From Oscillospiraceae bacterium (GTDB taxonomy: Bacteria > Bacillota > Clostridia > Oscillospirales > Ruminococcaceae): 39,070 bases of DNA. Position 1 is the stretch's first letter. Every line of letters begins with the position of its first letter. Position numbers and translations under genes: made by a program. The stretch is taken from the NCBI GenBank assembly GCA_009781425.1, contig WQYC01000025.1:1-39070 (forward strand). Direction: 5' to 3'. Positions 1-14,539 of this stretch are shown in pieces. Below the pieces are notes generated by a model that saw only the letters and a program-made list of their open reading frames with translations, was not told the DNA's origin and did no database searches.

Positions 1-555
1 CCCCAACACCACCCTAACAATCCCCCGACTCTTCTCATCAGCCCTATCAAACGCAAGCGCTACCGCCCTCGCCTCCACCGAAATCTCTGCAGGCACATAA
101 GCCTTTTCCCCCGTCCAAGTCTCAAGCGGCACATCTAACTTATCGCTCAGCAGTAAAGCCAACGGCAGCGGCGCGTCCTTCATGCGCTTGAAAATAATCG
201 ACCGCACCTGCGAATCGGTCAGCCCCGTCACCCGCACAATCCCCGGAATATCCAGCCCCATTTCAGCCGTAACATCAATAAAAATCTTGTAAAACAGCTT
301 CTTCTTTGCTTTCGAGCCGAGTTCAAGGAAGCTGTTTTCTTCTTTTGCGTCGCCCATCATATAATCGAGCGAAACGTTCAGCTTCTTCGCGTATTCGGCG
401 GCAACAGAGACCTTCGGCGCACGTTGATTCGTCTCATAACGGCTTAAAACCTGCTTAGAAGTCCCCAAGACCTTGCCGAGTTCCTCCAACGATAACCCTT
501 GTTCTTTCCGAATCTGACGCAATCTGTCCCCGAATGTTACTAATTTTTCCTGCAT
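1..555 (-). CDS. XRE-family helix-turn-helix regulator, 3' end cut by window edge
   Basis: Reading the minus strand from the ATG at 555 gives 185 codons open to the window edge. It starts MQEKLVTFGDRLRQIRKEQG and has a classic XRE helix-turn-helix at about residues 8-62 (LSLEELGKVLGTSKQVLSRYE, then the NVSLDYMMG end). A second region at about 80-150 (DIPGIVRVTGLTDSQVRSII) looks like another DNA-binding or dimerisation unit. The tail EARAVALAFDRADEKSRGIVR resembles the end of many phage and element XRE repressors. An AGGAG ribosome site precedes the ATG and a 17-nt-spaced promoter lies upstream. It is divergent from the 674 gene, so it may be the control switch of the mobile element; that role is inferred. 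Confidence 0.85.
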   Translation of the reverse strand, partial: MQEKLVTFGDRLRQIRKEQGLSLEELGKVLGTSKQVLSRYETNQRAPKVSVAAEYAKKLNVSLDYMMGDAKEENSFLELGSKAKKKLFYKIFIDVTAEMGLDIPGIVRVTGLTDSQVRSIIFKRMKDAPLPLALLLSDKLDVPLETWTGEKAYVPAEISVEARAVALAFDRADEKSRGIVRVVLG

Positions 556-584
556 TTCACGTACTCCTGTCTGTTGATGCTAAC

Positions 585-613
585 AGTATAACACATTCAG
601 TCACCAATTGCAA
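585..613 (-). promoter_or_regulatory. Promoter for the XRE regulator
   Basis: Minus strand: -35 TTGCAA (608-613) and -10 TATACT (585-590), spaced 17 nt, about 30 nt upstream of the ATG at 555. It is back to back with the plus promoter at 646-674, so one operator here could control both genes. Confidence 0.6.
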
Positions 614-645
614 CACTATTGTCGAAATATGGGATACGATTTATC

Positions 646-674
646 TTGACATTAATCGCATTGTTGGGTATGAT
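646..674 (+). promoter_or_regulatory. Near-consensus promoter reading right into the mobile element
   Basis: TTGACA (646-651), 17 nt, TATGAT (669-674). Transcription would start near 681, which falls after the furthest upstream TTG start (674) of the following ORF. The real start of that gene is therefore probably downstream. Confidence 0.65.
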
Positions 675-1780
675 TGATATGTAATCTGCAGAATTACGCG
701 CCACAAACGTCACCGTATAGGCGATATTTGAGACGAAAGGAGTTGATTCTATTCAACAAACTCAATGAAAACCAGCTTTTCCTGATTATGCACTTGTGTC
801 AATATCAAACGCTGGACTATCAAACCTGTCTGCTTTCGCTGAATTCGGGCGATAAAATCAAAGCGTCATACGCTTTCCGCCCGCTGACGAAAAACAAATA
901 TATTTCAAAACACAAGGACAGCAGCGTACATATTTTATCCAAAGGAAGAGCGTTGTTCTCGAAAACTAAACCGTTAGTTACATTAGGCGGTGGGAGTAAA
1001 CAGCGTATTAATTCCATTTCACGAACTGCGATGTATTTGAAGCTCGCTGGATTCAAAAGCGTTTCCGAGCCCGATTCAAGCAGTGGGTTTTTCATTCCGT
1101 CAACCTGTTGGCGAAATATCCGCCACGGAATCCTCAGTAACGTGAAGTTCACGGGTATGTTCTGCGTTGGGGAGCTACGATTAGCGGTATATGACATCGG
1201 CGACGGTAAAATGGACTGGCAAATTCGGGCAGAGAGGTCGCTGTTTTATCCGCGCTTCGGCGAAGAATTCAAAACAACTGCCACGGGAATGTTGTTGATT
1301 TGCGATGAAGACAAACGTGTCGAAATCGCCAAGCGAATTATCAAGGAAACCATGTGGCACAGGAAACGGCTGATTGAATATGAAAGCTACGAGGAACGCC
1401 ACCGTCCCGTGAAATACAGCCGCGCGCCGATACGCGTCGCGCATTATTTTGAGCACGTGTATCTGACGACACCGAGCAGAATAGGTAGGACGCTCGCCAA
1501 CATTCGGGAAGAGCAGAAATGCATCAAGAAATATCGCAGTAATGCTGATTACAGCAACCACAACAACAAGGACTGCGATTTTTATGCAGGCTCACAGAGG
1601 ATTTATGTCAACCTCACGACAGATTTATTGAAATATGTCTATTTCTTCACGCAGGTAAAGGAAGATTACGAGAACGGCAGAACGAACTACGCGTTAATCA
1701 CACAAACCGAGGATTTACCGATTGCGGAAATGTATCCGAAATTATCAGAATTGGAAGGGTGGGAAATTTATGAGTATTAA
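674..1780 (+). CDS. Mobile-element protein with N-terminal winged-helix-like region, function unknown
   Basis: The open frame runs from a TTG at 674 to 1780 (up to 368 aa). The start is uncertain. The 646-674 promoter would begin its transcript after 674, an AAAGGAG lies at 736-742, and the first in-frame ATG is at 788. Residues about 28-95 look like a winged helix: NENQLFLIMHLCQYQTLDYQ, then a wing-like stretch ending VHILSKGRALF. This resembles the N-terminus of replication-relaxation-type proteins of Gram-positive mobile elements, although I cannot assign the family. The remainder is basic and rich in Arg and Tyr, with no catalytic motif I recognise. It overlaps the next gene by 11 nt, so the two are probably translationally coupled. 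Its position between an XRE regulator and a serine recombinase suggests an element maintenance or regulatory role (inferred). Confidence 0.7.
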   Translation: MICNLQNYAPQTSPYRRYLRRKELILFNKLNENQLFLIMHLCQYQTLDYQTCLLSLNSGDKIKASYAFRPLTKNKYISKHKDSSVHILSKGRALFSKTKPLVTLGGGSKQRINSISRTAMYLKLAGFKSVSEPDSSSGFFIPSTCWRNIRHGILSNVKFTGMFCVGELRLAVYDIGDGKMDWQIRAERSLFYPRFGEEFKTTATGMLLICDEDKRVEIAKRIIKETMWHRKRLIEYESYEERHRPVKYSRAPIRVAHYFEHVYLTTPSRIGRTLANIREEQKCIKKYRSNADYSNHNNKDCDFYAGSQRIYVNLTTDLLKYVYFFTQVKEDYENGRTNYALITQTEDLPIAEMYPKLSELEGWEIYEY

Positions 1781-2180
1781 TGAAATTGTAAGAAGCGCAG
1801 TTTTAAAGGACATGGTAGTGCTTGAAATTAAAGAAGCATTGCCGCCGAGCAAGAAATTAAACTCATCGCTGCATGATTATTGGATTGATTTAATTCATGC
1901 GGCAATCGGACAGGCTGCGTTTGGGCAAAAACTGCCCAAATTCGAGAAAGCCTTCGTCCTAATTGAAATCACCGCGCCGAAGTACACAGATAATACACAG
2001 CTTTGGGACACCTCGAACCGCTCAATCAATCTGTTTATTAATAACCTCAAAGGTATATTTTTTAAAGACGATAATTTTGAACACATGGCGTTCGGTGTTG
2101 TCGGGTGTTGGGGTGAAGCAGGCAAAATTGTAATAAAAATTATGCCGTTTGAAAGATTTGCGGAATTAATTAAGAATTAA
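1770..2180 (+). CDS. Mobile-element protein, possible distant RusA-like fold
   Basis: 136 aa from the ATG at 1770 (MSINEIVRSAVLKD), preceded by GGAAGGGTGGG inside the end of the upstream gene, which it overlaps by 11 nt. I rejected the longer start at 1722 because the 1770 ATG has the ribosome site. The C-terminal half (WDTSNRSINLFINNLKGIF, then FKDDNFEHM and a Gly/Val strand) follows the spacing of RusA Holliday-junction resolvases: Asp/Asn, a helix with Lys, then DD before a final strand. The basic catalytic surroundings are poorly kept, so this is only a suggestion. If correct, the product would act on branched DNA during element replication. Otherwise it is an uncharacterised element protein. 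Confidence 0.65.
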   Translation: MSINEIVRSAVLKDMVVLEIKEALPPSKKLNSSLHDYWIDLIHAAIGQAAFGQKLPKFEKAFVLIEITAPKYTDNTQLWDTSNRSINLFINNLKGIFFKDDNFEHMAFGVVGCWGEAGKIVIKIMPFERFAELIKN

Positions 2181-2259
2181 TAAAAAGGCAAAAAACCAAT
2201 CTTAATCAACATAAAAGACCGTACAGAAGTTGGGCGGTAAATTGAGAATCTGAAATATC

Positions 2260-2400
2260 ATGGGGAACATAAAAAACACAGGAGAAGTTGTTCTAATCTG
2301 CATTATAACTGTATTATTCGCAATGTTATGCAAAGGTGAAAACCGCGAAAATATGAGGAGTTATGGCAAAGAACAAAGGGTGCGTGAACGGCAGAAATAG
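2260..2400 (+). CDS. Possible 46-residue membrane peptide in the element
   Basis: ATG at 2260 to TAG at 2400 encodes MGNIKNTGEVVLICIITVLF followed by a charged tail (GENRENMRSYGKEQRVRERQK). One hydrophobic segment covers about residues 9-24. The ribosome site is weak, so expression is uncertain. A 31-residue Arg-rich frame (ATG at 2363) overlaps its end and terminates on the ATG at 2455, which could couple the three. No family recognised. Confidence 0.3.
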   Translation: MGNIKNTGEVVLICIITVLFAMLCKGENRENMRSYGKEQRVRERQK

Positions 2401-2454
2401 CGCGAGGAGGCGTAGCCGACGAGCGTGGAGGCAGAAAGGGGGAAGTGAAATCCC

Positions 2455-2682
2455 ATGAGAAAGTTCCGGCAAATATGCAACTGGCTCTACACAAGATTCT
2501 GTGATACCAAAGGCTGTATCGACATACACATTAAGAAAGTACAGCCTAAAGGTAATTGCATGAAGAAACGAGAGCGCACGCATACAATTAAAAATATATA
2601 CAAAGAAAACAATAAAAGCGCGAAAGAAATTTTAATGCGCTCGTTCCTCTTGTATTTAAAGCAAAAATGTGATATGATATAA
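2455..2682 (+). CDS. Small basic protein directly upstream of the recombinase
   Basis: 75 aa from the ATG at 2455 (MRKFRQICNWLYTRF). The AAAGGGGGA lies about 13 nt upstream, a long spacing. An internal ATG at 2560 (MKKRERTHTIKNIYKENN, 41 aa) has an AAAGG at a better distance and may be the true start. The C-terminus (SAKEILMRSFLLYLK) is an amphipathic helix. The frame ends inside the promoter of the serine recombinase. Small basic proteins beside a large serine integrase are sometimes the directionality factor needed for excision; this is position-based inference only. Confidence 0.4.
   Translation: MRKFRQICNWLYTRFCDTKGCIDIHIKKVQPKGNCMKKRERTHTIKNIYKENNKSAKEILMRSFLLYLKQKCDMI
2650..2678 (+). 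promoter_or_regulatory. Promoter for the serine recombinase
   Basis: -35 TTGTAT (2650-2655), 17 nt, -10 TATGAT (2673-2678). The -10 is strong and the -35 is weak. It is followed at once by a perfect 8-bp inverted repeat. Confidence 0.55.
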
Positions 2683-2700
2683 GCGATGATGGTCGCTTAT
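2679..2700 (+). promoter_or_regulatory. Inverted repeat over the recombinase transcription start
   Basis: ATAAGCGA (2679-2686), a 6-nt spacer, then TCGCTTAT (2693-2700), a perfect 8-bp palindrome. It overlaps the predicted transcription start and lies just before the AGGAGG of the recombinase. It could be an operator or a leader hairpin limiting recombinase expression. Confidence 0.5.
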
Positions 2701-2714
2701 TTTAGGAGGTACAA

Positions 2715-4286
2715 ATGTACGCTGAAATAAGAAACCCAATAAATTTCAAGGTTGCACTATACATACGATTATCAAAGGAGGACGATAACGAAAAGGAATC
2801 CGAAAGCGTTACTAATCAGCGCAGCTTGCTTTACGATTACACGAGCAAAAACAAGCTTTATGTTGTGGACGAATACGTAGACGACGGCATTTCCGGTACA
2901 AGCTTCGACCGCCCGAGCTTCAACCGCATGATTCGCGACATCGAGAATAAGCGAATCAATATGGTCATAACCAAGGATATGTCGCGGCTCGGCAGAGATT
3001 ACATTATGACCGGGCATTACATGGAGCGTTACTTCCCGGAGAACAACGTGCGTTATGTTTCTCTTCTCGACGGAATCGATACGTTTTCGGACAGCGGGGC
3101 GAACGACATAACACCGTTCAAGGCAATCATGAATGATATGTACGCAAAGGATATTTCAAAGAAAATCACAAGCGTAAAGCGCGCGAAACAGGAAAAAGGC
3201 TTGTTTATCGGCTCAAAAGCTCCGTTCGGGTACAAGACGCTTCCCAACGACAAAAACAGATTCATGATTGACGAGCCCGCCGCCGAGGTTGTAAAAAAGA
3301 TGTTCGCGCTTGCATTTAACGGGCTCTCCTGCGGGAAAATACGAGAATATTTAAACAAAAACAAGGTTGTCCCGCCGTCCGAATACGCAAACGTCAAGTG
3401 CGGACGGAAAGGTCCCTACTCGGGAACATGGAGCAGCGAGCGGGTGTCGGCGACCTTGAAAAATCAAGTCTACATAGGCAACATGGTGCAGCGGCGCAAG
3501 AAAAAAGTAAGCTATAAATCAAAAAAATGCACATCGCTTCCGCCCGAGGAATGGGTCATCGTTGAGAACACGCACGAGCCGATTATCGACAGGCAGGTTT
3601 TCGACACAGTGCAGATGTTAATCGCAAAGCGAACCTATACGCGAAGCCGAACGCACGATTATCTTTTAAAAGGCTTGATTCACTGCAAGGAGTGCGGTTA
3701 CGTATTTAATGTTGTTTGCAGAAAGCTTGCGGGCGGCAAGGACGTGCTGTATTTTCTGTGCCAAACTCATCAGCGTTTCCCGTCTAATTCAAAATGTTCG
3801 TTGCATTATTTTAGAGTCGACGCGATTGAAGAAAGCGTTTTGCAATGCGTCAGAGCAGTCTGCGAAAAATACCTTGACCTTTCAGAAATGCGGCAGCTCG
3901 GCAAGCAATATTTAAGCGAGCGTAAAGAGCCCGACAACAAAAACGCTCTCGCAGAAATCGAGAATAAAACAACCGAACTTACTAAAAAATTAGACAGCGT
4001 TTACGAGGATAAGCTGAGCGGGATTTTATCACCGGAGGACTTTGAGCGGATTTACGAAAAAATTAAAACCGAGCGTGAGGCTCTGTGCAAAAAACTGCAA
4101 GCAATGCAAAATAAAACAAAAACCGAAGTAAATACTTCGGCTCAGGCGAAAAAGCTCGCGGAACGCTTCTTAAAAGAAATCGACGTAAACAAAGAACTGA
4201 TGTTCAGCTTAATCGACAGAATCGACGTGTCAAAAGACGGCGAAATAGCGATTAACTGGGCGTTTGCGAGCATTGACGATAAGTAA
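2715..4286 (+). CDS. Large serine recombinase (integrase/excisionase of the element)
   Basis: 523 aa with a strong AGGAGG 6 nt before the ATG. It catalyses site-specific integration or excision through a 5' phosphoserine link. The resolvase domain (about residues 12-150) carries the nucleophile in YIRLSKED (Ser20), GISGTSFDRPSF and DMSRLGRD with its catalytic arginines. The recombinase domain (about 160-290) includes KAPFGYKTLP. A zinc-ribbon region has CKECGY near 325 followed by later Cys/His, and a coiled coil (about 400-470, ALAEIENKTTELTKKL) precedes the C-terminus. This is the TnpX/TndX-like architecture. The stop lies only about 14 nt from the junction with cotJC homology, as expected for an integrase next to its attachment site. 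Confidence 0.95.
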   Translation: MYAEIRNPINFKVALYIRLSKEDDNEKESESVTNQRSLLYDYTSKNKLYVVDEYVDDGISGTSFDRPSFNRMIRDIENKRINMVITKDMSRLGRDYIMTGHYMERYFPENNVRYVSLLDGIDTFSDSGANDITPFKAIMNDMYAKDISKKITSVKRAKQEKGLFIGSKAPFGYKTLPNDKNRFMIDEPAAEVVKKMFALAFNGLSCGKIREYLNKNKVVPPSEYANVKCGRKGPYSGTWSSERVSATLKNQVYIGNMVQRRKKKVSYKSKKCTSLPPEEWVIVENTHEPIIDRQVFDTVQMLIAKRTYTRSRTHDYLLKGLIHCKECGYVFNVVCRKLAGGKDVLYFLCQTHQRFPSNSKCSLHYFRVDAIEESVLQCVRAVCEKYLDLSEMRQLGKQYLSERKEPDNKNALAEIENKTTELTKKLDSVYEDKLSGILSPEDFERIYEKIKTEREALCKKLQAMQNKTKTEVNTSAQAKKLAERFLKEIDVNKELMFSLIDRIDVSKDGEIAINWAFASIDDK

Positions 4287-4320
4287 GGACGTAATTGTCG
4301 GGCATAGTAAACCGCTGGGA
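4287..4320. other. Predicted right attachment junction (attR) of the element
   Basis: On the minus strand the conserved CotJC coding sequence continues to the Met-Pro codons at 4300-4305, then departs from the family into element sequence just outside the recombinase stop. The crossover should lie at roughly 4290-4310. The partner junction (attL) with the rest of cotJC must be left of the window. The exact core dinucleotide cannot be set from one end. Confidence 0.6.
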
Positions 4321-4449
4321 AAGATAGCGCAAACTCGCGCCGAGCTCGCCATCGGGTCCGCCATACTGACTCAAAATAAACCCCGCCAGCTTCGGATTCT
4401 TATTATGTATTCTTACAGGCATCTGCGTTCTTTTCTCAAATATAAACAT
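4300..4449 (-). pseudogene. cotJC: cotJC (manganese-catalase-like spore coat protein), 5' portion only, interrupted by the element
   Basis: From the ATG at 4449 the minus strand encodes MFIFEKRTQMPVRIHNKNPK, then LAGFILSQYGGPDGELGASL and RYLSQRFTMP: 50 residues matching the start of CotJC proteins. CotJC is normally about 190-200 aa with di-manganese ligands further on, all missing here. After Met-Pro the frame runs 15 unrelated codons into the end of the recombinase gene. A ribosome site (AAAGGAT/AGGGG) and an 8-nt spacing from cotJB are intact. It is either broken or, as with skin-like elements, restored by excision in the mother cell; the second option is inference. Confidence 0.85.
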
Positions 4450-4457
4450 ATTTACCC

Positions 4458-4724
4458 CTAAATCCTTTCCGACGGCCACGCGCCGTCAAGCCAATCCCAC
4501 TCACCCTCATGTCCCGCACTGCAGGCGCGCAGAGGATAGCAACAGCTTTCAAAAGCCTCGCGACAGGCTTCGCTTTGGTTGCAAGCCTCGCGGAACATCT
4601 CTAATGCGGCTTCATCGTCGGGGTGCGTGTCTAAGTAGAGATTGAGGTCGTGCGCGAAGAAAGATGCCTCGCAGAGCTTATCCATCAGCGCGGAGCACTC
4701 TTGTTTATTGAATTTACTTGCCAT
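4458..4724 (-). CDS. cotJB: Spore coat protein CotJB
   Basis: 88 aa from the ATG at 4724 (MASKFNKQECSALMDKLCEA), chosen over the upstream ATG at 4748 because GAGGGGGAT precedes it. The CotJB family signature LYLDTHPDDEAALEMF is at about residues 29-44, and the C-terminus WDWLDGAWPSE matches the family's W-x-W-(I/L)-(D/E)-G-x-WP ending. It is thought to act with CotJA and CotJC as a coat or coat-associated complex in the mother cell. It overlaps the end of cotJA by 11 nt and is followed 8 nt later by the interrupted cotJC. It is richer in Cys (six) than the Bacillus proteins. Confidence 0.85.
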   Translation of the reverse strand: MASKFNKQECSALMDKLCEASFFAHDLNLYLDTHPDDEAALEMFREACNQSEACREAFESCCYPLRACSAGHEGEWDWLDGAWPSERI

Positions 4725-4896
4725 TCCAAATCCCCCTCGTATAATCATTTATGCCGATGTTCAACTCGGGGAAAATTGTCCCCTCTGCGAGAGCGCGCTT
4801 CGGCGGATAAACCTTGCCGAGCCGCTGAGGTATGACAAAAGCGTAGCCGACACGCGGCGAGTTCGCTTTGTCAATTCTTCTTGTTATATTTTGCAT
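4714..4896 (-). CDS. cotJA: Spore coat-associated protein CotJA
   Basis: 60 aa with AAAGGAG before the ATG at 4896. The segment VGYAFVIPQRLGKVYPPKRALAEGTIFPEL is the CotJA signature (x-AY-x-P-x-Q ... Y-x-P-x-x-AL-x-x-GTIFPEL). It is the first gene of the cotJABC operon and overlaps cotJB. Expression is expected in the mother cell during sporulation, and a GCATA-NNN-TA motif sits just upstream. Confidence 0.85.
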   Translation of the reverse strand: MQNITRRIDKANSPRVGYAFVIPQRLGKVYPPKRALAEGTIFPELNIGINDYTRGIWNGK

Positions 4897-4921
4897 AGAA
4901 TTTCTCCTTTCGTGTTTAATT

Positions 4922-4977
4922 TATTTTATGCTTATAATAAAAGTCGGTGTCACGTTTGCGGCTACTTGCATAATCTA
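4922..4977. promoter_or_regulatory. Divergent sporulation-type promoters (SigE/SigK-like -10 boxes)
   Basis: Minus strand: GCATAAAATA (4922-4931, read in reverse) lies about 26 nt upstream of cotJA, with CACC about 15-17 nt further up. Plus strand: GCATAATCTA (4968-4977) lies 45 nt upstream of the small peptide gene, with an AC about 15 nt before it. Both -10 boxes fit the CATA-NNN-TA of SigK promoters and resemble SigE. No good SigA promoter is seen. The assignment is from sequence alone. Confidence 0.45.
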
Positions 4978-5022
4978 TATTACGACACAAAACGTCACAA
5001 TAAAACAAAGGAGGAACATATT

Positions 5023-5121
5023 ATGCCATTTTTCAACAGAGGTCGCTTTATTCCCTGGTGGACGGTAGGCTACGTCAGACACAACAGAAGAAATTGCGGC
5101 TGCAGACGCGGCTGGTGGTAA
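5023..5121 (+). CDS. 32-residue aromatic/basic Cys-containing peptide, possible coat component
   Basis: A very strong ribosome site (AAAGGAGG, 8 nt spacing) precedes the ATG at 5023. The product begins MPFFNRGRFIPWWTVGYV and ends RRNCGCRRGWW. It has 4 Trp, 7 Arg and a CGC pair and no hydrophobic membrane segment. A terminator follows 8 nt after the stop, making a complete one-gene unit. Divergence from cotJA and a sporulation-like -10 box suggest a small spore protein; no family is recognised. Confidence 0.6.
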   Translation: MPFFNRGRFIPWWTVGYVRHNRRNCGCRRGWW

Positions 5122-5129
5122 AAAGAAAC

Positions 5130-5155
5130 GGGGCTGAGATTTAACTCTCAGCCCC
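5130..5155. terminator. Bidirectional terminator
   Basis: A 10-bp perfect stem, GGGGCTGAGA (5130-5139) and TCTCAGCCCC (5146-5155), with a 6-nt loop. It is flanked by an A-rich left side and a TTAAAG right side. It serves the plus-strand peptide gene and the minus-strand secreted protein ending at 5170. Confidence 0.8.
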
Positions 5156-5169
5156 TTAAAGTTTTGCTG

Positions 5170-6045
5170 TTACAAATCTATCCACATCGCGGGACGAATT
5201 GCACCTTCTTCGGCGACATTATCACCGCTTACGTTGAGTGTGCCGTCGTTATAAATACCTGCGGCAATATAAGTATCGGAACCGGGCGACCTAAGCCACC
5301 AAAAACAACCGAAGCCATTCGGGTTTGTGCTCCTGTTACCGCACCAATTAAATGAACAGCTTATACAAAACGCCCTGCGCGCACTGTTAAACTGGTCGTC
5401 TATCCACCACGCTTCTGCCGGTCTGTTTTGTAATTGCCCGCTATCGCCGAAGTATTTTACAACCTCATCAATACTCAGCAGGAAAATATAATCCGCTGTA
5501 TCCTCGCCGCCCGACGCTCCGAACCATTGATTATCTGCATTAGTAATCGTCGTCTGTTGAATTTTAGCTCTGTCGGTTGAATTGAAGCTGTTGTAAAACT
5601 CATCGTTAAGCCACTTGCGGATTTCGCTGACTGACCATACGTGATAACGTCCCGAGCCTTGGCTGAAAATCCTTTTTTCTAAGAGCCTGTCGGACAAAAT
5701 CAACGCCCTGCCGTCCTTTACTTCAAGCACCCGCCAGTCATAACCGCCGAATTTAATTACACTGCCGACGCTTACAGCACCTATTGCAGCAGGCGCATTT
5801 GCTGTTCCCGTATCAGCGGGTACTGTTATCCCTGCCGCCGCTCGCAGAATCCTTAATGCGTCGGTGGTTGAAGGTGTCCCCGTTATACCGAATTTTGTAG
5901 CTTGTTCTGCTGTGAGCGTAATTAATCCCGCCGCCGCTCTAAGTACTGTGAGCGCGTCTGCTGTTGTCAGGTCTGAAGCCGAGGCTGTCACGGGAAACGA
6001 TAACATCATCGCTATGATGAGTAAAATTGAAATTACCTTTTTCAT
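5170..6045 (-). CDS. Secreted protein: dockerin-like module plus DUF6273 domain
   Basis: 291 aa with AAGGAGG before the ATG. A signal peptide (about 1-23, MKKVISILLIIAMMLSFPVTASA) is followed by two dockerin-type helices, LTTADALTVLRAAAGLI (about 25-42) and STTDALRILRAAAGI (about 59-73). The Ca-binding loop is reduced to GITGTP rather than D-x-N-x-D-G. Residues about 92-291 match DUF6273: VIKFGGYDWRVLEVKDGRAL, then WLNDEFYNSF, WWLRSPG and the terminal RPAMWIDL. It starts 21 nt after the GH94 stop, so the two are probably cotranscribed. The N-terminal module recurs in the 14930 gene. The function is unknown; it is probably extracellular. Confidence 0.85.
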   Translation of the reverse strand: MKKVISILLIIAMMLSFPVTASASDLTTADALTVLRAAAGLITLTAEQATKFGITGTPSTTDALRILRAAAGITVPADTGTANAPAAIGAVSVGSVIKFGGYDWRVLEVKDGRALILSDRLLEKRIFSQGSGRYHVWSVSEIRKWLNDEFYNSFNSTDRAKIQQTTITNADNQWFGASGGEDTADYIFLLSIDEVVKYFGDSGQLQNRPAEAWWIDDQFNSARRAFCISCSFNWCGNRSTNPNGFGCFWWLRSPGSDTYIAAGIYNDGTLNVSGDNVAEEGAIRPAMWIDL

Positions 6046-6066
6046 TTAAGAATCCTCCTTAAAGTT

Positions 6067-8457
6067 TTACATTTCAATCACAACATCATTCTGCGCTTTC
6101 AAAATCCCCTCTTCAATCAGCAAGCCGTCGATTTTCGTGCCGTTTACGGTTACGGACTTAACTCCGCTTTCCGCGCCGTTCGGGTTGTTGATTTTTACGT
6201 TCAGCTCTTTTCCGCGGAAGGTCTTCTTCATTTCAAACTCTTTCCACTCCGACGGAATCGACGGGTTGATTACTAAACCCTTGATTTCGGGGCGAAGTCC
6301 GAGGATTCCCTCAACCGAGCCGACCATGACTGTAGACGCCGTGCCTGTGAGCCAGTGAACGTGCGAACGTCCCGCGAACGGGCTTCCCTTGCCCTCTGTG
6401 AACTGCCCGTGTGCATACGGCTCAAGGATTCTCTTGTCCGCGTCGTCGTTCATGTAGGCGGGGGAGGAATTGCGCCAGTACTCGAAAGCACGGTTTCCGC
6501 GTCCGAGCAGGGATTCCGCGAGAATCGCCCAGCCCTGCGGCTGTGAGAAAATGCCGCCGTTTTCTTTTACGTAGCCGTTGAAGCAGACCATCAGCGCGCC
6601 GTCGAACGCGTGGCTCGCGTAAGGCGGATTCATGACCTGAATTCCGTAAGGCGTGCTTAATTCACGGTAAACGCTGTCCATAGAGGTTTTAGCCTGTTCG
6701 TCGGACGAGAAGCCGGAGATAATCCCCCAAGTCTGCGGATTCAGCCACATGGACGCTTCGGGGTCGCCGTTCTTGCCGATGATGTCGCCGTTCTCGCGGT
6801 AGCCGCGTATCCAGCGGTCGCCGTCCCAGCATTTATCGAGTACAGCCGACAGCTTCCCGCCTATTTCGTTTAAATACTCCAAGTATTTATTGTCGTTTTT
6901 ATACTCTGCGAAATTCTTCAACAGCTTAATCGCGTAGACTAATTGGAACGCCACAAAGCTGCTCTCGCCTTGTTTACCGAGACGCAGGCAGTCGTTCCAG
7001 TCGGCGTGAAGCCCTGCAGGCATACCGTGACCGCCGAGGTTGTTCATCGAGAAATCAACAGCGCGCTTTAAGTGTCCGTAAACCGAGCCGCCTTCTCCCT
7101 GTTCATCTTTATCGGCGTAATGAACAACTTCGTCAAGGAACACCATGTTGCCTGTTTCGGTGATGTATTTATAAATCGTCGGGAACAGCCACAGCGCATC
7201 GTCAGCACGGTAAGAGTCGTGCTTTGTTTCGGCATCGTAAGAGGGGTCACCCGGCTTGTCCTCGTGCGGAGGATTGTGGGTGTATTTAACAAGCGGAAGC
7301 CCCGCGCCGCTCGCAGTCTGCGCCGACAGCATGAATTTAATCTGCTCCAACGCCATCTCGGGCGCAAGGTGGATTATCCCCTGAATATCCTGAACAGTAT
7401 CACGGTAGCCGAAGCCGTTGCGAAGTCCGCAGTAGTCGAAGCTCGCCGCGCGCGACCAAATGAACGTAATGAAGCACTGGTACGCGTTCCAGACGTTGAG
7501 CATATTATTGAACTTATCGTCGGGCGTTTTTACGCTGAGGTTTCCGAGCTTCGCGTGCCAGTAATTCTTGAGCTTTTCAAGCTCTGCGTCTGCGTTTTTA
7601 ATATCGGAATATAAAGCGATTAGCTCTGCTGCTTCTTTCTCGCATTTTTGTGCAAGCAGGAAACAGAACTCCGCGCTTTCGCCCGCGCCGAGAGCTAACT
7701 CCGTCTGAAGAACGCCGCAGGAGTTTCCGCAGTAGTTGAGGTCGCCGTTAAGTCCGCCTTCAATGCCAATCGGGTTGCCGTAATTGCGGTATTTGCCGAT
7801 GAAAGCGTCGCGGTCGCCGCAGTATTTGCTTACCTTTGCACCCGCGAGTCCGAAGAAGCGTTCTTTTCTCGGGTCTTTGAAATTCTCGTTGTAAACCTGC
7901 TTAATGAAAGTATCCTTGAAATATGTACGGGAAATGAACTTCGTGTACTGTAAGTTAACCTGGTCTTGTTCATAGTTTGGCTCGTTTGTGAACTCCATTG
8001 CGCCTGTAACGGACAGCTTGCGGGGTTTTCCGCTGTCGTTAGTGATTTTCACGCGCCAAATTTCATATTCTGCGCCGTGCGGAACAAAGTAGAGGGTTTC
8101 CGCTTTGATTCCGGTATATTCGGAGGAAATCTGCGTATAAGCAGTACCATGGCGGCACTCGGCTTTGAAGCTGTCGATGGGCTTACAAACAGGTGCCCAG
8201 GACGCGCTCCAGTAGTCATTGCTGTCGTTGTCCTTGATGTAGACGTAACGTCCGGGTAAATCGTTCGAGCCGCTGTTAAAGCGGAAGCGGGACAAACGCC
8301 CGTTCGCGCCGCTCTTCACGAAGCTGTAGCCTGCCGCGTTGTTGGAAATAATCGCGCCGTAAAGCGGCGAGCCGAGGTAATTCGCCCAGGGTGCGGGGGT
8401 GTCGGGGCGGGTGATGACGTATTCTTTGTTTTTCTCGTCGAAATAGCCGTAATTCAT
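6067..8457 (-). CDS. GH94 disaccharide phosphorylase (cellobiose-phosphorylase type)
   Basis: 797 aa from the ATG at 8457 (MNYGYFDEKNKEYVITRPDT), which has GGAGG upstream. I rejected a 63-residue extension to 8646 because it crosses the promoter. GH94 enzymes phosphorolyse beta-linked disaccharides to a sugar plus sugar-1-phosphate in the cytoplasm. Seen: the N-terminal sandwich start PWANYLGSPLYGAIISN, the catalytic general-acid motif HADWNDCL (Asp about 489), and the usual (alpha/alpha)6 core. Length and Asp position match cellobiose phosphorylases, but cellobionate or laminaribiose are also possible. Its glucose-1-phosphate could be used by the phospho-sugar mutase at 10478. No signal peptide. 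Confidence 0.9.
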   Translation of the reverse strand: MNYGYFDEKNKEYVITRPDTPAPWANYLGSPLYGAIISNNAAGYSFVKSGANGRLSRFRFNSGSNDLPGRYVYIKDNDSNDYWSASWAPVCKPIDSFKAECRHGTAYTQISSEYTGIKAETLYFVPHGAEYEIWRVKITNDSGKPRKLSVTGAMEFTNEPNYEQDQVNLQYTKFISRTYFKDTFIKQVYNENFKDPRKERFFGLAGAKVSKYCGDRDAFIGKYRNYGNPIGIEGGLNGDLNYCGNSCGVLQTELALGAGESAEFCFLLAQKCEKEAAELIALYSDIKNADAELEKLKNYWHAKLGNLSVKTPDDKFNNMLNVWNAYQCFITFIWSRAASFDYCGLRNGFGYRDTVQDIQGIIHLAPEMALEQIKFMLSAQTASGAGLPLVKYTHNPPHEDKPGDPSYDAETKHDSYRADDALWLFPTIYKYITETGNMVFLDEVVHYADKDEQGEGGSVYGHLKRAVDFSMNNLGGHGMPAGLHADWNDCLRLGKQGESSFVAFQLVYAIKLLKNFAEYKNDNKYLEYLNEIGGKLSAVLDKCWDGDRWIRGYRENGDIIGKNGDPEASMWLNPQTWGIISGFSSDEQAKTSMDSVYRELSTPYGIQVMNPPYASHAFDGALMVCFNGYVKENGGIFSQPQGWAILAESLLGRGNRAFEYWRNSSPAYMNDDADKRILEPYAHGQFTEGKGSPFAGRSHVHWLTGTASTVMVGSVEGILGLRPEIKGLVINPSIPSEWKEFEMKKTFRGKELNVKINNPNGAESGVKSVTVNGTKIDGLLIEEGILKAQNDVVIEM

Positions 8458-8505
8458 GTAAAATTCCTCCGTGTTTTTATAAGATGTAAATATTTGCCTA
8501 ATGCA

Positions 8506-8534
8506 ATAATAGCACGGATTTGCGCATTGCACAA
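8506..8534 (-). promoter_or_regulatory. Promoter of the GH94 gene with overlapping palindrome
   Basis: Minus strand: -35 TTGTGC (8529-8534), 17 nt, -10 TATTAT (8506-8511). The 15-nt imperfect palindrome at 8520-8534 (TTGTGCAATGCGCAA on minus; 13 of 15 positions symmetric) covers the -35 and spacer, as expected of a LacI/GntR-type repressor operator. The regulator itself is not identified. Confidence 0.55.
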
Positions 8535-8587
8535 GGGCGGTTTTTTTCACAAAGTTTGCGCGGGTTTTTTGTGCAATATGTATAGGG

Positions 8588-8616
8588 TTGACAATATATG
8601 ACAAATGTGTTAAAAT
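8588..8616 (+). promoter_or_regulatory. Promoter of the toxin-like mRNA
   Basis: TTGACA (8588-8593), 17 nt, TAAAAT (8611-8616). The transcript would start near 8622 with a GGC-GAAA-GCC tetraloop hairpin (8625-8634) and carry a leader of about 70 nt before the 22-residue peptide. Confidence 0.75.
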
Positions 8617-8690
8617 GTTTGTATGGCGAAAGCCTAAGGGCGACATAACGGTATTGCGGTTGGCTAAGCCTCTGAAAGGAGGTGACGCCT

Positions 8691-8759
8691 ATGGAACTGA
8701 TATTGGGTTTTTTAGTGTTTTACACGCTTTTACTTATAATCAGGGAAATAAAGAAATAA
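8691..8759 (+). CDS. 22-residue hydrophobic peptide, candidate type I toxin
   Basis: ATG at 8691 with a strong GAAAGGAGGTG at 6-8 nt. The peptide begins MELILGFLVFYTLLL and ends IIREIKK: one membrane span with a short basic tail, the form of Fst/TxpA/holin-like type I toxins, which insert in the inner membrane. Its last two codons and stop are the left arm of the terminator at 8754-8791. A convergent consensus promoter at 8844-8872 would make an RNA antisense to its 3' end. The longer frame from 8588 in another register lacks a ribosome site and was rejected. No named family is assigned. Confidence 0.65.
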   Translation: MELILGFLVFYTLLLIIREIKK

Positions 8760-8791
8760 ACCGCCCCTGCGCTAACATCGGCGGTTTATTT
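8754..8791. terminator. Shared bidirectional terminator of the toxin-antitoxin locus
   Basis: A perfect 12-bp inverted repeat, AAATAAACCGCC (8754-8765) and GGCGGTTTATTT (8780-8791), with a 14-nt loop. The A/T-rich outer ends allow termination both ways. It ends both the toxin mRNA and the convergent RNA, as in Fst/par loci. Confidence 0.85.
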
Positions 8792-8837
8792 ATGAACCTA
8801 TGATTTAAGCCAACCGTCTATCGGTCGCCCTTCTTCT
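8754..8837 (-). ncRNA. Predicted antisense RNA (candidate type I antitoxin)
   Basis: From the consensus promoter at 8844-8872 a minus-strand RNA would start near 8837 and end at the 8754-8791 terminator, about 80-85 nt. It has no ribosome site plus ORF. It is fully complementary to the 3' end of the toxin mRNA. Its 5' part also repeats two leader elements of the toxin mRNA, GGGCGAC and CGGTTGGCT. Start and length are predicted, not measured. Confidence 0.6.
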
Positions 8838-8843
8838 TTCCAC

Positions 8844-8872
8844 ATTATATCACACAAATATTAAATTGTCAA
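8844..8872 (-). promoter_or_regulatory. Perfect consensus promoter for the antisense RNA
   Basis: Minus strand TTGACA (8867-8872), 17 nt, TATAAT (8844-8849), identical to the SigA consensus. No coding gene begins downstream within its transcript before the terminator, so an RNA product is the simplest explanation. Confidence 0.8.
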
Positions 8873-8890
8873 GATACAGAGGAGAATTTT

Positions 8891-10423
8891 ATGTTCGCTA
8901 AAATTAACGGCATGGGCTTATACGGCATGAACGCTTTTCCCGTTTGCGCTGAAATCAGCACATCAGGCGGAAGCGTCCCAAGCTTCGATATAGTGGGTCT
9001 CGCCGACACCTCGGTTCAGGAAAGCCGCATGAGAATCCGCTCTGCGCTCAAAAATTCAAGCATAGCAGTTAAGCCGCTTTGTACAGTCGTAAATCTCGCG
9101 CCCGCTTCAATAAAGAAAACAGGCTCGCTCTATGACCTTACTATTTTGACCGCGATTTTAGCGGCGCAGGACATAATAAAAACAGACGTGAACGACTGCG
9201 CCTTTTTCGGCGAGGTTTCGCTCGGCGGAGACGTGAATCCTATTAACGGTGCGCTGACACTTACGATCGCCGCCCGCGAGCACGGAATCAAAAAAGTCTT
9301 TCTCCCCTTCGCAAATGCACGCGAAGCCAGCGTCGCAGAAGGTACAGAGGTCTACGGCGTGCGCAATATCCGCGAGCTCGCCTTGCACCTCATGGGTGAA
9401 AGTTACATAGAACCGCAGAAGCCTTTTATTCCCGACTTTGAAAGCGCCTCCGAGCTTCTTGACTTTGCCGATGTAAAAGGACAGGAAAACGTTAAAAACG
9501 CCCTTGAGGTCGCGGCGGCGGGCTTCCATAATATCCTTATAATCGGCACGCCCGGCACAGGAAAAAGTATGCTTTCCAAGCGTCTGCCGTCGATTCTGCC
9601 GCGCATGAGCTTTGAAGAAAGCCTTGAAACCACGCAGATTCATTCGGTTGCGGGCGTTTTAGATACTAAGAATCCGTTGGTGACAACGCGCCCGTTCAGA
9701 AACGTCACGCACACAGCGTCGGCTGTCGGGCTGATAGGCGGAGGAAGTATCCCGAAGCCGGGCGAGATTTCTCTCGCGCACAACGGCGTGCTGTTTTTAG
9801 ACGAGCTGCCCGAGTTTGACCGCAGAACGCTCGAAACCCTGCGTCAGCCGCTTGAAAACGGCGAAATTAATATTACCCGCGCCGGCGGAAAAGCAAGCTA
9901 TCCTTGCAAAATCATGCTCGTTGCCGCGATGAATCCCTGCCCCTGCGGAAACTTCGGGCATCCGACGAAGCTCTGCGCTTGCAACGAATACAAGGTTCAA
10001 GCCTATCTCGGTAAAATCAGTCAGCCCGTGCTTGACCGCATAGACATACAAATAGAAGCCGCGCCCGTCAGCTATAACGAAATTTCCGACAAAGAGAAAG
10101 GCGAGCCGAGCATTGAAGTTTTGAAGCGCGTTGAAAAAGCGCGGGAAATTCAAGCGCGGCGTTACGCGGGAACTGCAATTAAATCCAACGCCGATATTCC
10201 CGCGGGAAGCTTGCAGGAAATCTGCGTGCTTGCGTCCGATGCGGCGGTGACTTTGAAGAATGCTTTCGAGAAATTAGGCTTGTCTGCGCGCGCTTATGAC
10301 AGGATTCTCAAGGTTTCGAGGACGATTGCTGACTTGGACGGTAAGGATATAATTGAAAAGCGGCATATTTCAAGGGCGATTCAATATCGGAGCCTTGATA
10401 AAAAATACTGGCGCAGTAATTGA
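8891..10423 (+). CDS. comM: ComM/YifB family Mg-chelatase-like AAA+ ATPase
   Basis: 510 aa with GAGGAG before the ATG. An N-terminal Lon-like fold (FDIVGLADTSVQESRMRIRS) is followed by the chelatase AAA+ domain. Walker A GTPGTGKSML is at about 219-228 and Walker B VLFLDELPEF at about 299-308. MNPCPCGNFG and a later Cys form the conserved Cys cluster, and DRIDIQIEA lies in the sensor region. In other bacteria ComM is a hexameric helicase that helps branch migration during natural transformation; here the role is by homology only. It has no clear promoter of its own. Its stop overlaps the -35 of the next gene. Confidence 0.92.
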   Translation: MFAKINGMGLYGMNAFPVCAEISTSGGSVPSFDIVGLADTSVQESRMRIRSALKNSSIAVKPLCTVVNLAPASIKKTGSLYDLTILTAILAAQDIIKTDVNDCAFFGEVSLGGDVNPINGALTLTIAAREHGIKKVFLPFANAREASVAEGTEVYGVRNIRELALHLMGESYIEPQKPFIPDFESASELLDFADVKGQENVKNALEVAAAGFHNILIIGTPGTGKSMLSKRLPSILPRMSFEESLETTQIHSVAGVLDTKNPLVTTRPFRNVTHTASAVGLIGGGSIPKPGEISLAHNGVLFLDELPEFDRRTLETLRQPLENGEINITRAGGKASYPCKIMLVAAMNPCPCGNFGHPTKLCACNEYKVQAYLGKISQPVLDRIDIQIEAAPVSYNEISDKEKGEPSIEVLKRVEKAREIQARRYAGTAIKSNADIPAGSLQEICVLASDAAVTLKNAFEKLGLSARAYDRILKVSRTIADLDGKDIIEKRHISRAIQYRSLDKKYWRSN

Positions 10424-10448
10424 CATATACGGTAAATTTTGGTATCAT
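10420..10448 (+). promoter_or_regulatory. Promoter for the phospho-sugar mutase operon
   Basis: TTGACA (10420-10425) contains the comM stop codon; 17 nt later is TATCAT (10443-10448). It lies 30 nt upstream of the mutase ATG. Confidence 0.7.
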
Positions 10449-10477
10449 AATAAATATATCACAATTGGAGGGCAATT

Positions 10478-12211
10478 ATGGAAAAAATAAACAAAGAAGC
10501 ATTAAATGCAAATTATAAACTCTGGTGTGAAAATGCCAAGTCTGACCCCGATTTAGTAACAGAGCTGCAAAGCATTGCAAACGATGATGACGCCATTCTC
10601 GACAGGTTCTACCGCGAGCTTGAATTCGGAACGGCAGGGCTTCGCGGCTTAATCGGCGCGGGACCCAACCGCATGAATTTTTACACTGTCAGAAAAGCCA
10701 CGCAAGGCTTTGCCGACTATGTTAAGGCGCAGAACCCGAATAATCCGCAGGTCGCGATTGCATACGACAGCAGAATTAAGTCCGATTATTTTTCGCGGAC
10801 AGCCGCAGAAGTACTTGCCGGAAACGGCATAAAAGTGCATATGTACAGCGAATTAATGCCGACGCCTATGCTTAGCTTCGCAGTGCGTTATTTGAAATGC
10901 GATGCGGGTATTAACGTCACCGCAAGCCACAACCCCGCGAAGTTCAACGGCTACAAGGCATACGGCGCGGACGGCTGTCAAATCGGCTCGGAGGTTGCAG
11001 ATGCTGTGCTTGCGATTTGCGCGAAGCTTGATATTTTTAACGATATAAAGTCGCTTGACTTTGAGTCCGCGCTCTCGCAAGGGTTAGTCAGCTACATCGA
11101 CGACAGCGTGAGCGAAGCGTACTTCGACGAAGTTAAGAAGCAGGCGATTCACCCCGAATCAAGCAGAGAAGCAGGCTTAAAAGTCGTCTTCACACCGCTC
11201 AACGGCGCAGGAAATAAGCCCGTCCGCAGAATCTTGAACGACATGGGAATCACGGATATTACTGTCGTTCCCGAGCAGGAAATGCCCGACGGAAATTTCC
11301 CGACTTGCCTTTACCCGAACCCCGAATTCAGAGAAGCGTTGGAGCTCGGCTTAAAGCTGTGCAAGGAAGTGAAGCCCGACTTGCTTTTAGCCACTGACCC
11401 CGACTGCGACAGAGTGGGAATCGCTGTTCCCGATGGAAACGACTACGCGCTTTTCTCCGGTAACGAAACGGGTGTAATGCTGCTCGAATACATTGCGCGC
11501 GAACGCATCGCAACAGGCACAATGCCCGCGAATCCGATTGCCGTAAAATCCGTGGTTACGACAACGCTGACCGAGGAAGTCGGCAGGGAATACGGCGTTG
11601 AAATAATAGCTACACTGACAGGCTTCAAGAACATCTGCGGCGTAGTCGCAGAGCTTGAAAAGAAGAATGAGGAAGCGAGATTTCTCTACGGCTTCGAGGA
11701 AAGCTACGGCTATGTTTCGGGCACATATGTGCGCGATAAGGACGCGGTAGTCGCGTCTATGCTGATTTGCGAAATGGCGGCGTTCTACCGCTCGCAAGGT
11801 ATTTCGCTGATTGAAGCGCGCGCTAAAATGTACGAAAAATACGGTGTTTTCCATAATTCTGTCGATAATTTCGCATTTGAAGGTGCTTCCGGCATGGAAA
11901 AAATGGGGAAAATAATGCAGGGGTTCCGTGATAGTATTCTGTACGAAATTGCAAGTATAAAAGTCACTGCGTTTAGCGACTTTAAAGCAAGCGAAAAATC
12001 GGAGCTTATGAGCGGCGCGAAGACCGCTATAAGCCTGCCGAAAACCAACATGGTTATCTTCGACCTTGACGGCGGCGCCTGCGTAATCGTGCGACCGTCG
12101 GGAACTGAGCCGAAAATAAAAGTCTATTATACAACCGTAGGAAAAACACAGCAGGAAGCAGGAGCAATCCGCGAAAGGCTTTCTAATGAAATGAAAGGAT
12201 TTTTCAAATAA
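10478..12211 (+). CDS. pgcA: Phospho-sugar mutase (alpha-phosphoglucomutase/phosphomannomutase, PgcA type)
   Basis: 577 aa with GGAGGG before the ATG. It interconverts hexose-1- and hexose-6-phosphates in the cytoplasm. Seen: the phosphoserine loop VTASHNPAKFNGYK (active Ser about 148), the metal-binding loop TDPDCDRVG (about 306-314), GFEESYGYVSG (sugar-binding EES, about 407), and the phosphate-binding RPSGTEPKIK (about 538-547). All four domains and the usual length are present. It could convert glucose-1-phosphate from the GH94 phosphorylase to glucose-6-phosphate. Its TAA shares one base with the ATG of the next small gene. Confidence 0.93.
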   Translation: MEKINKEALNANYKLWCENAKSDPDLVTELQSIANDDDAILDRFYRELEFGTAGLRGLIGAGPNRMNFYTVRKATQGFADYVKAQNPNNPQVAIAYDSRIKSDYFSRTAAEVLAGNGIKVHMYSELMPTPMLSFAVRYLKCDAGINVTASHNPAKFNGYKAYGADGCQIGSEVADAVLAICAKLDIFNDIKSLDFESALSQGLVSYIDDSVSEAYFDEVKKQAIHPESSREAGLKVVFTPLNGAGNKPVRRILNDMGITDITVVPEQEMPDGNFPTCLYPNPEFREALELGLKLCKEVKPDLLLATDPDCDRVGIAVPDGNDYALFSGNETGVMLLEYIARERIATGTMPANPIAVKSVVTTTLTEEVGREYGVEIIATLTGFKNICGVVAELEKKNEEARFLYGFEESYGYVSGTYVRDKDAVVASMLICEMAAFYRSQGISLIEARAKMYEKYGVFHNSVDNFAFEGASGMEKMGKIMQGFRDSILYEIASIKVTAFSDFKASEKSELMSGAKTAISLPKTNMVIFDLDGGACVIVRPSGTEPKIKVYYTTVGKTQQEAGAIRERLSNEMKGFFK

Positions 12212-12333
12212 TGGAATTTATTGACATTAATCCGGCTACAGGCGTAGGGCTTGGCGTGGGCGTTGCAATCGCGGCAGTCGCGCTGGCGGTTTTAATCGCA
12301 CTTACAATCATCGACAAAAGGAAGAAAAAATGA
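12211..12333 (+). CDS. 40-residue single-span membrane microprotein, coupled to both neighbours
   Basis: ATG at 12211 overlaps the mutase stop by one base, and its TGA overlaps the next gene's ATG in an ATGA junction. The product begins MEFIDINPATGVGLGVGVAI, continues through a long Ala/Val/Leu span (about residues 11-34) and ends DKRKKK, a stop-transfer tail. An AAAGGA lies about 11 nt upstream. The double overlap makes it unlikely to be chance. I know of no family for it; a role in anchoring or regulating neighbours is speculation. Confidence 0.65.
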   Translation: MEFIDINPATGVGLGVGVAIAAVALAVLIALTIIDKRKKK

Positions 12334-13895
12334 AATACATTGTCACAGCATCGCAAATGAAAAAAGCGGAGCAGAACGCTGACCGCAAGGGCATTACCTT
12401 TTCTGCGCTGATGGATAACGCGGGAGCGGCTTGCTACAAGCAGCTCTTGAAAATTATCGACGGCGGCGACGTAAAGGGTAAGGCTTTTGTTGTGCTGTGC
12501 GGGCGCGGAAACAACGGCGGCGACGGCATTGTACTGTCGCAGAAAATCAAGGAAAACGGCGGCATGGTGCTCTGCATTTTTGTGACAGATTTGCCGAACA
12601 GCGCCTGCGCGAGAGAGAATTACAGCAAGTACTGCGTGCATGGCGGAAGCGAAGGAAACGCACTCGACACCGCGCTTTACACCCACCGCGAGGACGCCGT
12701 TAAGCAGGCGTTAACTAACTGTGATGTCGTTATCGACTGTGTGTTCGGAACAGGGTTTATAGGCGAGCTTGAGCCGCGGCTCGGCGCGTTGTTTCGTTTT
12801 ATTAACATGAACTTCGAGGGACTTAAAATTTCTGTTGACGTTCCGAGCGGCATAAACGCAACCACGGGCGAAGCGGCTGAACGCGCCTTTCTGCCTGATG
12901 TAACCTTCATGCTCGGCGCGGCAAAAAAAGGACTGTTCTCGCACCCGACGTTTGATAACTGCGGCGATTTAGTACTGCTTGACATAGGGATTCCCGATGA
13001 GTGCTACGAGGAATATGAAGCAGTTTTCATTGACGAAAGTATTTTGAAGCAAGTTCCCGAGCGCAAAAAAAGCTCGCACAAAGGCAATTACGGCAAGCTG
13101 TTAAATATAGCGGGAAGCGAGCAGTGCATAGGTGCCGCGCTTCTTTCCACCAAAGCCGCGCTAAAATGCGGCGCAGGGCTTGTCACGCTTGCGAGCGTGC
13201 GTGAGGTTTGCCGCGCTGTGGCTTGCGCTGTTCCCGAAGCAATGTATCTGCCGCTTTATGCTGACGCTGAGGGCTTCGCGGACGGCGAGTCCGCCGAGAC
13301 TGTGAAGGATAAGCTTGCGGGCTCTGCGTTTAACGCAGTCGCGCTCGGCTGCGGGCTCGGGATTACCCAGCACGTCTGGGAAATGGTTGAGGTTGTACTA
13401 AAAAATTGCAATTGTCCTGTTATTTTAGACGCAGATGGAATATATTTGCTGAGCCTTAATATAAATGTCTTAGAGGAAAATGACAAACACAGAGTAATCA
13501 CACCGCACCCGTTGGAATTCAGCAGACTTACGGGAACGTCCGTACAGGAGCTTCAGGCTGACCGCATAAGGCACGCCCGCGACTTCTCGCAGAAGTGGAA
13601 CACGGTCACAGTGCTGAAGGGCGTAAACACAGTCGTAGCCGCACCCGACGGCAAGGTTTTTGTCAACATTACGGGCAACCCCGGCTTGGCTAAAGGGGGC
13701 TCGGGCGATGTTCTGACCGGCATGATTGCTTCTTTTATCACGCAGGGAGTTAGACCGACCGAAGCGGCAATGCTCGCTGTTTATCTGCACGGACTGACCG
13801 CCGATTATCTCGCTGAAAGCATCGCGCTCTCGGGGATTATGGCGGGCGATATTGCGGAAATACTGCCGGTAGTGATGAAGAGCTTGGAGCGATAA
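12330..13895 (+). CDS. nnrE-nnrD: Bifunctional NAD(P)HX epimerase / ADP-dependent NAD(P)HX dehydratase
   Basis: 521 aa with AAAGGAAG before the ATG. It repairs hydrated NADH and NADPH. The N-terminal NnrE (YjeF_N) domain is at about 1-215 (CGRGNNGGDGIVLSQ, DCVFGTGFIGEL, VDVPSGINATTGE). The C-terminal NnrD ribokinase-like domain is at about 235-515 (HKGNYGKLLNIAGSEQCIGA, DADGIYLL, ITPHPLEFSRLTG, and GNPGLAKGGSGDVLTGM with the catalytic Asp of the GSGD motif). Both halves look intact. The start codon overlaps the stop of the membrane microprotein. Confidence 0.95.
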   Translation: MKYIVTASQMKKAEQNADRKGITFSALMDNAGAACYKQLLKIIDGGDVKGKAFVVLCGRGNNGGDGIVLSQKIKENGGMVLCIFVTDLPNSACARENYSKYCVHGGSEGNALDTALYTHREDAVKQALTNCDVVIDCVFGTGFIGELEPRLGALFRFINMNFEGLKISVDVPSGINATTGEAAERAFLPDVTFMLGAAKKGLFSHPTFDNCGDLVLLDIGIPDECYEEYEAVFIDESILKQVPERKKSSHKGNYGKLLNIAGSEQCIGAALLSTKAALKCGAGLVTLASVREVCRAVACAVPEAMYLPLYADAEGFADGESAETVKDKLAGSAFNAVALGCGLGITQHVWEMVEVVLKNCNCPVILDADGIYLLSLNINVLEENDKHRVITPHPLEFSRLTGTSVQELQADRIRHARDFSQKWNTVTVLKGVNTVVAAPDGKVFVNITGNPGLAKGGSGDVLTGMIASFITQGVRPTEAAMLAVYLHGLTADYLAESIALSGIMAGDIAEILPVVMKSLER

Positions 13896-13906
13896 GTAAA
13901 AGTCAT

Positions 13907-14464: not shown

Positions 14465-14488
14465 TATAAATTCCGCGCTTTTACAAAT

Positions 14489-14523: not shown

Positions 14524-14539
14524 TGAAAGGCTCATTAAA

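Follow-up and report, generated by a model that had tools for sequence, protein, structure and literature searches.

A serine-recombinase element inside the spore-coat gene cotJC of an Oscillospiraceae bacterium, and recurrent integration into this gene in other Clostridia

When a gene for a spore-coat protein stops in mid-frame beside a recombinase gene, is it simply broken, or does it carry an element whose departure would make it whole? The question is raised by one end of a 39,070-nt stretch of an Oscillospiraceae genome (the window, by which we mean that whole stretch), where cotJA, cotJB and the beginning of cotJC lie next to a gene for a large serine recombinase. An initial annotation proposed that cotJC is interrupted by a recombinase element and that excision restores the gene during sporulation. 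The relevant features, with the element at this site termed element B, are as follows.

1..555, minus strand: helix-turn-helix regulator belonging to the element, its frame running off the contig end (HTH_3, E 7e-18; PHROG 8)
674..2180, plus strand: two element open reading frames, 674-1780 and 1722-2180 (no Pfam match at E 0.001, no PHROGs match at E 1e-5)
2715..4286, plus strand: large serine recombinase, 523 aa (Resolvase, Recombinase and Zn_ribbon_recom domains; PHROG 95, integrase, E 7.5e-100)
1..4294, no strand: right part of element B, the rest being contig C47 from about 5792 to 18907
4295..4301, minus strand: shared core CCGACAA, crossover site B; the same 7 bp opens the next cotJC piece (C47:5791-5785)
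4295..4449, minus strand: 5' piece of cotJC, covering residues 1 to about 52 (Mn_catalase, PF05067, positions 1-53)
4461..4748, minus strand: cotJB, intact (Pfam CotJB, PF12652, E 2.1e-21)
4717..4896, minus strand: cotJA, intact (Pfam CotJA, PF11007, E 1.1e-9)

The interrupted gene and the element within it

CotJA, CotJB and the first 53 positions of CotJC (a CotJC/Mn-catalase match at 4449-4291, minus strand) all lie above the Pfam cut-offs, and the matches to PF11007 and PF12652 bear out the intactness claimed for cotJA and cotJB. The cotJC piece is an in-frame 5' portion that starts at 4449 (minus strand), with residues 1-51 showing 84% identity to an intact CotJC from the same genus. Homology to relatives runs through ...SQRFTMPD and ends at the core, so that the break falls between ...TTTACTATGC and CCGACAA. 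The Pfam matches, together with this abrupt end of homology, confirm that cotJC is interrupted beside a serine recombinase. One detail of the initial annotation was wrong: the recombinase gene, which has an AGGAGG ribosome site, does not begin at the junction. It is convergent with cotJC, and it is its end that lies there, the stop codon falling 8 bp from the cotJC edge and core.

What lies on the far side was established from the remainder of the genome (G000), a draft of 67 contigs that is 97.66% complete. A Pfam search of these contigs recovered the PF05067 family as two pieces – positions 1-53 in the window, and positions 52-151 on contig C47 (5529-5786, minus strand). The C47 piece, which covers residues 50-136, opens with CCGACAA (5791-5785) and continues ACGCGGTGTAGGTCTGCTC...; joined to the window piece it reads TMP-DKRGVGLL..., with no codon lost or doubled. 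Moreover, the last 123 bases of C47 are exactly window bases 1-123 on the same strand, and a DNA search found no third place for this overlap in the genome: both contigs thus describe one element of about 17.3 kb inside cotJC. Residues 1-52 and 50-136 of the gene flank these 17.3 kb in the right order, strand and frame. The prediction that further cotJC codons would be found beyond the element, beside a short direct repeat, is therefore upheld by C47 and its identical 7-bp core, and the insertion reading stands, the far-side codons being present and a complete cotJC being absent from the family search of the draft. The locus has the anatomy of the skin class of elements: an in-frame position, a recombinase near the end and an identical core at both junctions.

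Element B has a G+C content of 0.40, against 0.49 in window positions 5001-39070. Its cargo comprises an AAA/DUF4143 protein, a sensor-kinase-like protein, two C5 methylases, Vsr and HNH nucleases and an AAA ATPase; structural phage families (head, tail, packaging) were not found among its 10 larger proteins (PHROGs, E 1e-5). Adjoining the sensor-kinase-like gene is a response regulator with the C-terminal domain of Spo0A (PF08769, E 2.6e-21; L043 8712-9464, minus strand), through which the element could possibly be linked to the sporulation state of the cell. A scan of element B for Spo0A-like boxes gave scattered matches with no pattern. Close copies of the recombinase were not found in the genus at E 1e-100, except in one genome (G053) at 40%.

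The far-side piece is itself cut. It ends after MAAE at codon 136 – termed site D, where cotJC is also cut in other genomes – and the bases that follow on C47 resemble the element arm of another genome of the genus, G056. Taken with the cut at site B, this means that cotJC in this genome carries at least two insertions. Codons 137-185, the last piece, could not be found in the assembly, which is 97.7% complete, so restoration of the full gene cannot be shown from this draft; complementary sets of pieces are present in other genomes (for example, G190 and G237). A candidate third piece (C14:30987-31106) was rejected as a weak match with five stops.

Recurrence at few codons and by several recombinase lineages

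The cut is not peculiar to one genome. A CotJC query matched 56 of all 71 genomes of the genus; removal of one 33% paralogue (G036) left 55, in 30 of which cotJC is broken and in 25 unbroken. Counted as broken are two genomes (G039, G063) whose pieces end at contig edges; counted as unbroken are one with a match of 57% (G062) and four (G023, G050, G069, G032) in which the match does not extend beyond codon 176-177. The gene is cut near codon 30 (site A), 51 (B), 62-66 (C) or 136 (D), and in a few genomes at 176 (E). Site B has been seen so far in the window's genome alone, which counts against the mother-cell explanation preferred below. As a control we used rpsB, a gene of similar length: 62 of the 71 genomes match, and of these only four are without a full match, three of them starting at a contig edge. 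No match to cotJC was obtained in 15 of 71 genomes and none to rpsB in nine. Given the recurrence at fixed codons and the behaviour of rpsB, a chance break is very unlikely.

Extension to the class gave the same picture. We took 293 genomes with a completeness of 90% or more; the family is matched in 199, and from the matches listed 40 genomes were chosen by eye for weak best matches. Two or more complementary cotJC pieces are present in 29 of these 40, and hence in at least 29 of the 199; the 29 span 20 families, the window's own included, and 21 of them were fetched and re-checked with the CotJC profile. The other eleven of the 40 were not counted: adjacent pieces look like frameshifts in G128, G283, G298 and G343, overlapping pieces lie at contig edges in G204, the match in G186 is probably to a paralogue, and G348, G098, G084, G334 and G222 have a single piece each. 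Some genes are cut repeatedly, with three colinear pieces in G190, three on one contig in G224 and – the most pieces per gene – four on three contigs in G210. The insert is 8.1 kb in G237, and the halves lie 157 kb apart in G101; in G190, G224, G237 and G101 the pieces share a one-contig genome or a single contig, so that split genes occur also in one-contig chromosomes. The elements bring varied cargo: cell-wall amidases in G287 and G195, and, in the two elements of G190, a dockerin-bearing GH44 cellulase (L165 12673-15255, plus strand) and an SLH-bearing GH5 cellulase (L165 9012-11801, minus strand). The site-specific insertion in cotJC is real, and is one case of a widespread use of the gene as an integration target.

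Might such breaks be the product of assembly, with an unrelated recombinase contig joined inside cotJC? The window's genome is a draft of many contigs and its cotJC halves sit on two of them, as this account would have it. Each junction nonetheless lies inside a contig and the contig overlap is unique; same-contig or one-contig examples (G190, G237, G224, G030) contradict an artefact; and 58 of the 62 genomes with an rpsB match have that gene whole. We regard this explanation as scarcely credible.

Not every arrangement is simple. In G048 the recombinase frame runs on into the 3' piece of cotJC as a single open frame of 728 codons (L055 4714-6897, plus strand). In G014 (L048, L049, L251) and G045 (L073, L245) the cotJC halves lie with element ends facing outward, those of the one-contig G014 genome being 675 kb apart. 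Halves placed in this way would not be brought together by the simple excision of a small element, which counts against the explanation preferred below. The ends of contig C25 of G045 do not overlap, and thus give no sign of circularity.

When 40 junctions were aligned in codon register, most of the codons where a core was expected had a short shared one, such as GA within GCNGA for site D and GG or GGNACNGAAGAA for site C. The base next to GA at site D is that of the element on one side and that of the gene on the other. Large serine integrases make a two-base crossover, and the pattern fits one. Within the stretches fetched, a recombinase frame lies no more than 160 bp from the edge at 30 of the 40 junctions and further in at eight, none being seen at the other two. 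In a quick tree of 66 recombinases, with SH-aLRT support only, the cotJC site labels cluster strongly (12 changes compared to a shuffled mean of 36.5, with 0 of 200 shuffles as low): two lineages use site C, one site D and three site A, and the window's own uses site B.

Selection, excision and other cut sporulation genes

If broken copies were discarded copies, their reading frames ought to tell. We examined 18 of the 30 broken and 17 of the 25 unbroken genus genes, with codons next to the sites left out. Stop codons are absent from all 18 interrupted genes. Measured to the nearest relative, dN/dS has a median of 0.017 for broken and 0.018 for unbroken genes (14 usable in each set, some pairs being counted from both sides). 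Part of this may have another source. Two pairs of recombinases are 98% identical while their hosts' cotJC pieces are 86-88% or 77% identical, so these elements spread recently and such elements still move between hosts; with recent spread, intact frames could partly reflect the youth of the insertions. Two other pairs look older, with recombinases 84% and 70% identical and cotJC pieces 90% and 80% identical.

These data bear on the idea that sporulation is gone or on its way out in this lineage, and that elements merely accumulate in unused sporulation genes. In keeping with decay, further sporulation genes of the same genome adjoin recombinases, and 15 of the 71 genus genomes lack a cotJC match, though nine also lack one to rpsB. 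Against this stand the stop-free frames and low dN/dS of the 18 broken copies, the presence in the window's genome of a whole sigE (above the NCBIfam cut-off), and the complementary cotJC pieces in 19 other families, one-contig chromosomes included. We consider decay improbable.

The further sporulation genes of this genome deserve description in their own right. Its sigK breaks off near codon 115, where another serine recombinase adjoins it (C3; L215 3388-3738, plus strand, and 3752-5392, minus strand), with no 3' piece of sigK among the matches listed. Its sigG is split at about codon 94-97 between C5 (L217 4608-4928, minus strand) and C57 (L216 712-1194, plus strand), and 43 bp separate its 5' piece from a serine recombinase. 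A cwlD gene without its start adjoins a serine recombinase at 19 bp (C40; L220 2674-3375, minus strand). Another recombinase lies 4 bp from a piece tentatively named for its SpoIID/LytB and peptidoglycan-binding similarity (C38; L218 1740-2633, minus strand).

The window's recombinase has relatives with a telling address. From 483 loci found, 80 were kept, and 12 relatives sampled for the tree form one clade with the window recombinase (100% SH-aLRT); in six of the 12 the locus contains a broken sigK. The 80 loci (L084-L163) yielded 27 pieces of sigK at 40% identity or better. All 27 depart from the sigK sequence right after SRSYV, a cut near the C-terminal end; for ten, the distance to the recombinase end is about 55 bp or less. 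Part of the window recombinase's family thus sits in sigK. cotJC was present in just one of the 80 loci, and is intact there.

A rejoined junction is present in the assembly of a relative. In G033 the 5' piece of cotJC runs into an element on contig C50, while the end of C41 carries a rejoined gene (52 identical bases as far as the core, followed by the 3' piece); an empty or excised form therefore coexists with the interrupted allele in that assembly. An excision product was not seen for the window's genome. Precise excision is strongly implied, and we infer that it would be timed to sporulation. A feature that counts against the explanation preferred below is the sequence upstream of the window recombinase, which by eye looks sigma-A-like. 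The initial claim that excision restores cotJC finds indirect support, from in-register cores, stop-free frames under purifying selection, the G033 junction and the relatives at sigK; restoration of the whole gene cannot be shown in this genome, where there is a second cut and the last piece was not found.

A different view is that this is ordinary integration by a prophage-like element or island into a dispensable coat gene, the conserved cotJC codons serving as attB and excision reflecting the element's own mobility, with no tie to sporulation. That elements still move between hosts fits this view, and there is a phage connection: clade C1, one of the site C lineages, is close to temperate phage integrases, at 56% to the integrase of Paenibacillus phage phiIBB_P123. 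That phage carries the site C codons GGTACAGAAGAG right after its integrase (L252 2275-2340), between arms that by eye resemble element ends; the stretch is likely to be attP. Prophage phi027 of Clostridioides difficile, too, lies beside a cotJC homologue according to the accessible text of two reports (PMC11222575, PMC12122855). What speaks against the view is that purifying selection on broken cotJC equals that on intact copies in the genomes tested, that the gene pieces are in codon register, and that several recombinase lineages use cotJC while others in the same genome sit beside cut sigK, sigG and cwlD, all of them sporulation genes. We hold it to be unlikely, if clearly the strongest of the alternatives.

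Our preferred explanation, which we consider probable, is a site-specific cotJC element that is excised in the mother cell, like skin in sigK. An element of 17.3 kb with its own large serine recombinase has integrated site-specifically into codons 51-52 of cotJC. With flanking pieces in order, strand and frame around a shared 7-bp core, precise attL x attR recombination would rejoin the two codon runs exactly; a second insertion at site D, codon 136, cuts the same gene further on. The recombinase, together with a putative directionality factor made during sporulation, would excise the element in the mother cell, which is where cotJC is used in B. subtilis. The forespore would keep the element, which would be inherited while the coat protein was still made.

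A scheme confined to the mother cell leaves the broken sigG unexplained. Nine of the 71 genus genomes have no full sigG match but a piece of the gene that is cut at positions 88-97, and in G056 both pieces are on one contig, 14.7 kb apart. sigG is a forespore gene and its product acts there, so either excision takes place in the forespore too or sporulation is altered.

cotJC among known gene-intervening elements

Excision of skin from sigK during sporulation is established in Bacillus subtilis and C. difficile (PMC10747680; see also PMC5025042). Like skin, the cotJC element carries a serine recombinase, lies within a sporulation gene and would on precise excision rebuild the reading frame; some of the relatives with which its recombinase groups are found right next to a sigK broken after SRSYV. 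It differs in its target, in that excision here is predicted from anatomy, and in the scanned cargo of element B, which consists of restriction-modification functions and a Spo0A-type regulator without structural phage families. In cargo it is closer to gin, a non-phage island in gerE of Bacillus cereus ATCC10987 that carries restriction-modification genes and a serine recombinase; the accessible portion of that report (PMC5595907) describes three recombinase genes and a tested rearrangement dependent on GirC/GirX. Both elements have a short overlap at the gene pieces, 9 bp in gin as described there and 7 bp here, whereas the cotJC junction has one recombinase in place of gin's three genes.

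Other mobile elements are found inside sporulation genes, with excision: SP-beta in spsM, vfbin in spoVFB and yin in yabG (PMC4191935, PMC10747680). In the accessible text of PMC10747680 there is one element per gene; cotJC, by comparison, is entered at five or more codon positions by several recombinase lineages, with up to three insertions at once. For phi027 the cotJC homologue is placed adjacent to the prophage or downstream of attR (PMC11222575, PMC12122855). An attachment site by a CotJC-like gene is thus a shared feature, while a mid-frame cut of cotJC is not described for phi027 in the text available from these reports. We found no description of mid-frame interruption of cotJC, nor of a split sigG, in the literature searched, which covers few subscription journals.

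Tentatively, and with rather more doubt than attaches to the mother-cell explanation, we suggest that cotJC may be a class-wide hub of programmed gene assembly, entered at different codons by several independent serine-recombinase lineages. Some bacteria would then need two or three excisions to make one coat protein, and in the same genus sigG, split at one recurrent position, would need excision in the forespore and re-integration after germination. The split sigG poses a question: how does an element persist in a gene on which the future spore itself depends? Control of excision becomes testable in species with finished genomes, and the recurrence yields new pairs of recombinase and attachment site. 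Each account of sporulation gene-intervening elements that we found in print deals with a single element in a single gene; here, across 20 families, one coat gene is shared among several integrase lineages at few conserved codons, with elements stacked in single genes, which suggests that mobile DNA finds a general safe harbour in the genes of the mother cell.
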